Source: Candidatus Desulfobacula maris (GTDB lineage Bacteria > Desulfobacterota > Desulfobacteria > Desulfobacterales > Desulfobacteraceae). From it: a stretch of DNA of 33,623 nucleotides. The stretch lies in contig JACNHV010000254.1 of assembly GCA_014383445.1 (NCBI GenBank), positions 1-33,623 of the forward strand, written 5' to 3'. The notes beneath the pieces were generated by a model. The model did not search any database. It saw nothing but the letters and a program-made list of their open reading frames with translations, and was not told where the DNA came from. The translations under genes and the position numbers were made by a program. Shown piece by piece: positions 4,169 through 32,045 of this stretch (its first letter is position 1; the number at the start of each line of letters is the position of its first letter).

Positions 4169-4349
4169 GGCCTGATCAATCTGTTGCTTCAAGATCCGCT
4201 TGGGTTAATCCTCATCGCCATACCGCTCTTGTATGCTATAATTTTTCATGAGTTGGCGCATGGGTATGATATTGGTCTCTTCCGCAGGGATCATCGCGAA
4301 CATGCTATTGGCGTTCGGTGCTCTTTTTTTGGATCGATTGTTGTCCTAA
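4169..4349 (+). pseudogene. Broken M50 (site-2 protease) family gene
   Basis: The first block reads LLLQDPLGLILIAIPLLYAI followed by IFHELAHGY at 4244-4267. HExxH-type HELAHG is the zinc-binding motif of M50 membrane metalloproteases. Directly after it the frame changes: in the +1 frame 4269-4349 reads ILVSSAGIIANMLLAFGALF and then stops at TAA, which resembles the later [S/A]-G-P-x-A-N-x-x-L-A membrane segment of the same family. The 50 or more residues that normally separate these motifs are missing, as is the downstream NPDG-type region. There is no good start codon: AAGGAGA at 4154 precedes only a weak TTG at 4184. This is an internal deletion with frameshift and should not make an active protease. 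Confidence 0.7.
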
Positions 4350-4520
4350 AATTCTTATGGGTTTCGCATCACCAAGCATTCAAAACCACCTTTTCCGCCT
4401 TGAAAGATATGGATTTTTATTATTATTCGGTATATGGCTTTTGTCTAAAGGCCTAAAGATACAACAGACGCAGTAGATGAGCACCAACGCTCAGTGTACA
4501 AAAAGATAAATATCAGAAAC

Positions 4521-6490: not shown

Positions 6491-7960
6491 TTACCCTTTT
6501 TTTAATTTGGCAAGGATTTCCTTTTCACCTTCTCTTTTCAATCGGTCAAGCTCTGAAATGATTTTATCGCTTAAAGGTTCTGGTTTATGGGTTTCGGCAA
6601 TCATTCTGACTTCTTGTTTCACCCTGTCTTCCATTGAGGGTTTGCCGGCATCTTTCCACCCATCAATGGTCTGGCGGTTCATCAGTTTAGCATTCCACAA
6701 CTCTTTTTTAAAATGGTTCATGGTATGCTGCTGTACGAGAAAATGACCACCAGGCCCTACATCTTCCATGATCTGCCTTGCAATGGTTTCTCTGTTTACT
6801 GTGATACCTTGTACAAACCGCTTTGTCATACCGATCACTTCGTTGCCCATGACCAGCTGTTCAAGGGAACATGCCATGCCCGCAGCCATATACCCGACAT
6901 CATGGATAAGGTTAAGGCCGGAAAGGCCCTGGCTCAATATTGAAAAGGCACTTTCAATGCCTGCCTGGGCATCCAGCATTTTGGAATCAGTTGCACCTGC
7001 TAAGCCCCAGGTGGGCAGATTAAAGGATCGCGCCACCTCTGCCTGGGCAGCAAGAGCCAGGTTGTTTTCCGGTGCGCCCATTGCCATGAGTGCTGTTTTC
7101 ATATCAAGGATACCAACATTGCCGCTCATAGCAACAGGACATCCTGTCTTTCTCAATTGGGCAATGGTGATATGGATGAGCGATTCTGCCGTGATCAGGG
7201 TAATCAATCCAGCCAGGGTAACTGGCCCTGTGGCACCAGCCTGAACGGTTGAACCCGGCAGCTGGGGCATAAACCTGTCTGCTGCAACAAAAATACGCTC
7301 AACCACTTCATTCGGGAAAAAAAGAGGTGCAATGGCTTCGGGATAGGCAATAATAAAGGGTTTCTGAGTTAAATTATCCTGTCCTCCGGCAATCACTGCG
7401 GCCATCTCATAAACATATTCACAGCCAAGGGCAGTATAACCTATAAAAACAGAAGGTTTTGTCGTGTTGGAAACCATGGCGGGGAATTCATGGACTTCTG
7501 CGGCATCTGCCGGCACATCCTGAGCCGTTCCCATGGGCATGACAAAATCAATGCCATCCAGGTAATCTGCAACTTTTCCACCCAGTTCAATATCCTTGAT
7601 ACTGGTATTCCGGAATTCCCCAGTAAATGCATCCAGTGTAAATGGACTGGCTGTGGATGTGCCATAGTGGCTTTTTTCCCCTTCCACTTCCATTGCCCGC
7701 CTGCCGTTTCTGTCATAGATGGTCCAGCCATTGGGGGTTGTGACCAGGCATTCCTTAACAATATGCCTTGGAATTTTAATGTTGTTGTCCTTAATCCAGG
7801 CCCCGGCCTGTTTCATCATTTTATGAACTTCTTTGTGCTGGCATTTAAAACCAACTCTTTCAATAATATCAAAGGCCGCCTGTTTTATTTCCCAGATCTG
7901 GTCATCCGTGAAAATCTTCATACCAACGGATCTTGTTTGAATATTTGAAGACTGAATCAT
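6491..7960 (-). CDS. Trimethylamine methyltransferase (MttB) family protein, non-pyrrolysine type
   Basis: A 489-residue second member of the MttB superfamily. Recognisable stretches are GTSTASPFTLDAFTGEF near the N-terminus, the barrel segment QAGATGPVTLAGLITL, GLAGATDSKMLDAQAGIESA and the C-terminal VGPGGHFLVQQHTMNHFKKE. The frame has no internal amber codon, so it is expected to resemble glycine betaine-type (MtgB-like) enzymes rather than pyrrolysine trimethylamine methyltransferase. It would transfer one methyl from an amine to a corrinoid protein that must be encoded elsewhere. Its ATG overlaps the TGA of the upstream AOR gene (ATGA), implying translational coupling and placing it firmly in the sox/etf operon. 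Substrate is inferred only from context with the sarcosine-type flavoenzymes. Confidence 0.9.
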   Translation of the reverse strand: MIQSSNIQTRSVGMKIFTDDQIWEIKQAAFDIIERVGFKCQHKEVHKMMKQAGAWIKDNNIKIPRHIVKECLVTTPNGWTIYDRNGRRAMEVEGEKSHYGTSTASPFTLDAFTGEFRNTSIKDIELGGKVADYLDGIDFVMPMGTAQDVPADAAEVHEFPAMVSNTTKPSVFIGYTALGCEYVYEMAAVIAGGQDNLTQKPFIIAYPEAIAPLFFPNEVVERIFVAADRFMPQLPGSTVQAGATGPVTLAGLITLITAESLIHITIAQLRKTGCPVAMSGNVGILDMKTALMAMGAPENNLALAAQAEVARSFNLPTWGLAGATDSKMLDAQAGIESAFSILSQGLSGLNLIHDVGYMAAGMACSLEQLVMGNEVIGMTKRFVQGITVNRETIARQIMEDVGPGGHFLVQQHTMNHFKKELWNAKLMNRQTIDGWKDAGKPSMEDRVKQEVRMIAETHKPEPLSDKIISELDRLKREGEKEILAKLKKG

Positions 7961-31421: not shown

Positions 31422-32045
31422 TTAAATTGGCTTTGCACCGTATTTTACAATTAATTTTTCAAGGTTTTCATAGGATTGAGCCCCCACAAGACGGTCAAGC
31501 CCGATAAAAAAACTGGGTACGGCTGTGACACCTTTTGTCCTTGAAAGTTCCCAGTCTGAATCCACGGCATCTGAAAATTCCCGGGTTTCAATAACTGCCT
31601 TACCCTCCTCGCGATCAAGGCCGGAGCTTTCTATCAGGTTTAATAGAACATCTTTTTGAGCGATATTCTTTCCTTCCACAAAATAAGCCTTGAATGCTTC
31701 CATGTGAAACGGGTGGCCATGACCTTTTGTTTCTGCCCAAAGACCAACCTCCTGGGCAAGCCGGCTGTTATAGGTCATCTTTCTGTCACCCAGGGCAAGC
31801 CCAAGCTTTTCCGCGTTTTCTCTCAGGTTCGCCATCATTTTGTTCACATCAAAGGCTATCTTTTTGTGTTTAAACAGGTCTTCCAGGGTACGACCCTGCT
31901 CAGGCGTATCCGGATGAAGGGGAAACGCCCGCCACTTGATGCGGATATCATAGTTTTTTTCTAACTTTTCAATACTCCCGGTAATGAAATAACACCAGGG
32001 TCAAACATAGTCTGAAAATATTTCAAGCTCTAAAGCTGTAGACAT
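31422..32045 (-). CDS. Selenocysteine-containing FrnE/DsbA-like oxidoreductase (UGA recoded at codon 15)
   Basis: Read from the ATG at 32045, the frame is MSTALELEIFSDYV, then TGA (32003-32001), then PWCYFITGSIEKLE and on without a stop to 31422: 207 residues. FrnE-type thioredoxin-fold proteins have SDYVCPWCY at this place, so the UGA stands exactly for the first active-site Cys (U15-P-W-C18). AAAGGAG lies 7-8 nt before the ATG, proving the start lies upstream of the UGA. A hairpin follows the UGA with GG in its loop (separate entry). The rest of the family is present: KWRAFPLHPDTPEQG, and near the end KGVTAVPSFFIGLDRLVGAQ with the cis-proline VPSFF. It probably acts in thiol-disulfide exchange in the cytoplasm. 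Automatic gene callers would report only a 141-residue fragment from 31847. Confidence 0.85.
31967..31989 (-). promoter_or_regulatory. Bacterial-type SECIS hairpin candidate
   Basis: In the mRNA, UUUCAUUAC and GUAUUGAAA pair (8 pairs, one U-U mismatch) around the loop CGGGA. The loop begins 21 nt after the UGA and has the GG expected of bacterial SECIS elements, within the usual 16-37 nt distance. It lies inside the coding sequence, as bacterial SECIS elements do. Confidence 0.75.

Follow-up and report, generated by a model that had tools for sequence, protein, structure and literature searches.

An in-frame TGA predicted to encode an active-site selenocysteine in a FrnE-type DsbA protein from Candidatus Desulfobacula maris

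Our analysis of the window (the whole stretch of DNA that was analysed, 33,623 nt) identifies a minus-strand gene in which a TGA codon resembling a stop is predicted to be read as selenocysteine (Sec) at a DsbA/FrnE-type active site. The call is solid: the reading frame, the conserved TGA, a hairpin, the Sec machinery, and the fold family are all evident from sequence, and we infer the presence of Sec in the protein. The features of the gene are as follows:

32045-31422, minus strand: predicted complete selenoprotein gene, FrnE-type DsbA with active site U15-P-W-C18 (207 residues, about 23 kDa, TAA stop)
32056-32052, minus strand: ribosome binding site AGGAG, 6 nt 5′ of the ATG (read from the sequence)
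32045-32043, minus strand: start codon ATG (read from the sequence)
32003-32001, minus strand: in-frame TGA, codon 15, predicted to be read as selenocysteine (from the frame and relatives)
31967..31989, minus strand: bacterial SECIS-type hairpin (from synonymous freeze, compensatory changes, and fold)
31512..31520, minus strand: Val176-Pro177-Ser178 (Pro177 column invariant among 11 sequences)
31424-31422, minus strand: stop codon TAA (read from the sequence)

The frame contains a single internal TGA (context SDYV-U-PWCYF) and is otherwise free of stops. A sequence-only reading of this DNA had proposed that the TGA replaces the first Cys of a CPWC motif, that coding similarity continues on both sides of it, and that a ribosome site lies upstream; all three are confirmed, the motif reading U-P-W-C. 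Gene calling with table 11 returns only a 141-residue open reading frame with an internal GTG start (31847-31422). A scan of the window yields 51 read-through TGAs of comparable shape, TGA 32003-32001 among them, the other 50 being assessed by eye on short peptides only. TGA 32003-32001 stands beyond chance because homology extends both 5′ and 3′ of it and because it is common to 80 of 80 named contigs (the best 80 of 259, described below).

The assignment to the FrnE/DsbA family, also made in the sequence-only reading, is borne out by sequence and by predicted structure. Specifically, residues 7-199 match Pfam DSBA (E 1.7e-34), and the best solved relatives are structures of Deinococcus radiodurans FrnE (DR0659; PDB 5cnw and 5cp1; sequence E 1.2e-15), in which the first active-site Cys of CPWC aligns with the UGA position; D. 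radiodurans FrnE has Cys where the present protein is predicted to have Sec. An AlphaFold2 model, built with 11 relatives and with Cys in place of Sec, has a mean pLDDT of 91.4, and D. radiodurans FrnE entries account for all five of its best PDB matches (TMq 0.85-0.88). The protein has the DSBA thioredoxin domain and inserted helical domain that define the FrnE branch (PF01323/COG2761), and Pro177 is likely the cis-proline of the thioredoxin fold, a role assigned from the fold family. The N-terminus, MSTALELEIFSDYV, contains no signal-like stretch as judged by eye. Apart from U15, the only cysteine in the 207 residues is C18, and the C-terminal CXXXXC of the D. radiodurans FrnE subtype is absent. 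The search of NCBIfam gave no model above cut-off, only a partial and weak match scoring 35.5 bits where 190 are required, which makes plausible the earlier suggestion that ordinary gene calling would miss or truncate the gene.

To determine whether the TGA is shared, we compared the gene with homologues from the window's family, from public genomes, and from the phylum. A match is present in 62 of 86 genomes of the family, and the TGA is found at the U of UPWC in all 30 best family loci, one of which is the window's own; the matched region of these 30 contains no TAA, TAG, or frameshift, and extra TGAs are confined to the vicinity of the C-terminus, at which the gene would terminate. Forty further family regions comprise 31 with TGA at the site, 6 with Cys, and 3 with an alignment short of the site; among the 31, L088 repeats L048, and L080, L083, and L089 are broken or partial extra copies. 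L087 is another such copy, and the relatives that harbour these four also carry a longer one. A scan of public species genomes, which was not tuned to TGA in that one of its three patterns had Cys in the motif, returned 259 relatives. The TGA is present at the codon in 80 of the best 80, a selection biased toward close kin, at protein identities of 50-95%; at least 33 of these 80 named contigs share DNA with the family-genome loci, so the two sets overlap and are not independent. Carriers among the best 80 of 259 include Desulfobacula, Desulfotignum, Desulfospira, Desulfonema, Desulfosarcina, Desulfosediminicola, and others, together with one Thermodesulfovibrionia draft. Among cultured relatives, Desulfospira joergensenii DSM 10085 (L117) and Desulfosediminicola flagellatus (L126, with U-P-Y-C) both carry the gene. 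Across a phylum sample, 81 of 395 genomes have a match at 1e-20, with TGA in 68 of 83 match rows, and 37 hand-chosen divergent phylum loci divide into 26 with TGA, 10 with Cys, and 1 in which the site is not reached. The in-frame UGA thus aligns with Cys or Sec of homologues, the pattern that the sequence-only reading had proposed to look for. A plasmid search matched 269 records, none reaching 60% identity. Of the window's neighbouring genes, LysE, DUF2868, and the DUF3482 GTPase seldom recur within 3 kb of the 80 named loci (best 80 of 259), at 13, 13, and 10 loci respectively, so gene context is little informative on function.

Directly 3′ of the UGA lies a SECIS-type hairpin with G in its apical loop. 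The hairpin, TTTCATTAC-CGGGA-GTATTGAAA, pairs 31989-31981 with 31975-31967 (8 pairs and one U·U mismatch, which becomes a G·U pair in some relatives) around the loop CGGGA at 31980-31976. The CGGGA-loop hairpin of the sequence-only reading is therefore real, but its onset, placed there at 21 nt, is not: the hairpin starts 11 nt downstream of the UGA, and it is the loop that begins at the 21st nucleotide. Among 57 TGA-bearing family sequences (counted without L080, L083, L088, and L089), synonymous codon identity is 0.85-1.00 at codons +5 to +12 after the TGA, a mean excess of 0.53, compared with 0.13 for the gene as a whole (standard deviation of 193 windows, 0.08); over the rest of the gene there is a modest excess above expectation. 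Across 96 distinct sequences (without L089, L195, L170, L182, and L207), each of the seven matched stem positions counted is paired in 82 to 96 of the 96 rows, and the mismatch position in 31. Double changes are seen, for example from A-T to G-C and from T-A to C-G. Pairing holds in 89.2% of cells, versus 24.6-58.1% after the partner has been shifted by 1 to 3 nt; double-change cells number 18 in register versus 1-9 shifted, and positions with a double change 5 of 8 versus 1-4 of 8 (4 of 8 at shift +2 or +3), the rows being related by kinship and the cells thus not independent events. In every one of the 96 rows, a G is present among the two leading loop bases, and 90 rows have GG. When the 55 nt from the TGA onward are folded without constraint, a different structure is preferred (z -1.48), and a shorter downstream stretch of 28 nt does adopt the hairpin, though only mildly better than shuffles fold (z -1.49; 18 of 200 equal it). 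The comparative part of the hairpin evidence is strong, and folding energy alone is weak. In L196-L200, L202, L203, and L205, the hairpin is re-paired by G-C pairs (e.g. CGGTAC/GTACCG) with loops CGTGC or CGTGG.

Constraint alone does not identify a binding partner, and the frozen hairpin might serve another RNA function, in mRNA stability or regulation, with read-through incidental. We consider this highly improbable: the hairpin sits just 3′ of the UGA, its loop keeps the G and mostly the GG described above, the genome encodes SelB, and three Cys homologues of the window's family (L075, L077, and L078) lack both the TGA and the conserved hairpin sequence. Very unlikely also, and rejected, is a restart after the TGA (e.g. 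at GTG 31847), by which the functional product would be the 141-residue protein lacking the active site. The open reading frame with its GTG start does exist, but conservation across loci extends to the UPWC motif and to the residues that precede the TGA, and the frozen hairpin lies 3′ of the TGA and 5′ of the putative restart.

The coding sequence 3′ of the TGA was compared with that of two close relatives, giving dN/dS of 0.018/0.232 (about 0.08) against a relative at 95% identity and 0.048/0.221 (about 0.22) against one at 91% identity; by these ratios, the region is under purifying selection. The interrupting TGA, and the broken second copies in certain relatives, would fit a pseudogene in which a nonsense mutation struck a Cys-containing frnE and the remainder is decaying. 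We reject this reading as extremely improbable, because the TGA and the downstream frame are both conserved: the identical codon recurs in all 80 named contigs (best 80 of 259) down to 50% protein identity, selection persists 3′ of it, and the 30 best family loci remain intact as described. The sequence-only reading had held that a real stop followed by decay in relatives would count against it, as would a genome without selB and selC. In the relatives, the TGA and the coding sequence beyond it are kept.

The genome, for its part, contains all four Sec genes for which that reading had proposed a search. In particular, the draft (4.85 Mb, 94% complete) has above-cut-off matches for tRNA-Sec (selC, 75 bits), selB (343 bits), selA (597 bits), and selD (371 bits, with one internal TGA of its own), and ARAGORN reports a tRNA-SeC with anticodon tca. 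Since models also score above cut-off among 14 control genomes (tRNA-Sec in 5, selB in 2, selA in 1, selD in 2), the argument rests on the four genes together and on no single match. Across the phylum sample, tRNA-Sec is found in 353 of 395 genomes and, by comparison of two listings, in 56 of 67 genomes with the TGA form, no better than in the remaining genomes; the TGA form is thus not enriched in genomes of this sample with a detected tRNA-Sec. The 11 TGA-form genomes without tRNA-Sec were searched again under laxer settings, and none yielded it (0 of 11). Ten of the 11 have selB above cut-off, so that in these ten the tRNA-Sec gene was likely missed or unassembled; the draft G276 (locus L201), rated 100% complete, has the TGA form with neither tRNA-Sec nor selB above cut-off. 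A general reassignment of TGA to Trp or Gly in the organism, which would also leave the frame open on read-through, is vanishingly improbable and already refuted, since the site is Cys and never Trp or Gly in 6 of 6 non-TGA family loci and 10 of 10 phylum loci, the genome carries Sec machinery, and the close relatives L021 and L022 appear to terminate the same gene with TGA.

We therefore return to the reading of the TGA as Sec. With high confidence, the gene is predicted to encode a FrnE-branch thiol-disulfide oxidoreductase of the DsbA family, probably cytoplasmic, that uses Sec for the first Cys of CPWC through SelB- and hairpin-dependent recoding and has a putative disulfide reductase/isomerase role. 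As judged from the conserved parts, a ribosome reaching the UGA would encounter the hairpin 11 nt downstream, which would recruit SelB and Sec-tRNA-Sec, and the UGA would be read as Sec at the nucleophilic position of the active site. The U15 selenolate would attack substrate disulfides, and C18 would resolve the mixed selenosulfide. Because there is no third cysteine and no C-terminal CXXXXC, the enzyme would be recycled by an outside thiol system. By homology with D. radiodurans FrnE, its likely role would be protein disulfide reduction or isomerisation under oxidative or metal stress.

In a quick tree of 67 hand-chosen proteins, with 28 of the 64 inner branches left open, the UPWC proteins fall in one clade (36 Sec and 5 Cys forms), and a second clade holds 15 Sec and 8 Cys forms. 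This tree requires a minimum of 7 Sec/Cys changes, or 4 counting starred branches only. The five Cys forms nested inside the UPWC clade (L075, L077, L078, L185, and L186, with CTWC or CPFC) suggest Sec-to-Cys losses in relatives. The U-P-[FY]-C FrnE-like proteins of the phylum (L170-L184) resemble the present protein in the position of the Sec codon, but they are only 25-36% identical and fall outside the UPWC clade. A tentative proposal, which we hold as possible and somewhat doubtful, is that the UPWC FrnE clade is ancestrally and mostly selenoprotein in the phylum, its nested Cys forms being losses, and that the SECIS hairpin has fixed the residues YF[IS]TG[SR]IE after the active site. If true, an RNA element rather than enzyme function would have shaped part of a redox enzyme.

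Selenoproteins of this kind have been described before. According to excerpts of the sources, the 2005 Sargasso Sea study reported nine UXXC DsbA-like selenoproteins under COG2761 (PMC1088965), the GOS study reported 63 UxxC sequences as 'DsbA 1' (pfam01323; PMC2398784), and a 2026 review lists a UxxC 'DsbA-like protein form 1' (PF01323; PMC13188914). COG2761 is the COG of FrnE (DR0659 frnE; PMC1978522). Compared by these descriptions, the present gene belongs to the same COG/Pfam family and likewise has its Sec codon at the first residue of the redox motif; it differs in belonging to a Desulfobacula-like sulfate-reducer lineage, as placed by its nearest named contigs. The family being already known, the gene adds a member to a selenoprotein family known since 2005, and the kind itself is not new. 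A C-terminal CXXXXC, absent here, has been proposed to regenerate the active site of D. radiodurans FrnE, and the FrnE proteins from D. maricopensis and S. roseofulvus likewise lack it (PMC8945050, in excerpt). Titles and abstract openings retrieved for FrnE and selenoprotein include none on a bacterial FrnE selenoprotein. A Desulfobacula-like MAG is credited with 34 putative selenoproteins (PMC8318568) and D. autotrophicum with at least 31 Sec proteins (PMC2702500), and deep-Sep was tested on Desulfosediminicola flagellatus (PMC12013277), which carries the gene (L126). DsbA does not appear in the main text of the first, DsbA/FrnE in the accessible text of the second, or Dsb/FrnE in the main text of the third; the supplements may list the gene.

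Elsewhere in the window are two MTTB-family methyltransferases (PF06253; 552-2003, plus strand, and 6491-7960, minus strand), as well as FAD-dependent oxidoreductase genes. Nearly the whole profile is open in both, and since there is no in-frame TAG, they are apparently of the non-pyrrolysine type. A 90-residue open reading frame at 4184-4456 (plus strand) has no Pfam match and looks like a gene fragment; its HELAHG motif is reminiscent of a site-2-protease metal site.

Taken at the level of sequence, a frame that looks truncated is confirmed as that of a full, putative redox selenoenzyme. It provides a clear case in which a recoding hairpin is nearly unchanged while the proteins have diverged to about 50% identity. 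With no NCBIfam model above cut-off, such genes may be truncated in routine annotation; the hairpin, together with the UPWC pattern, could aid in their recovery by annotators.
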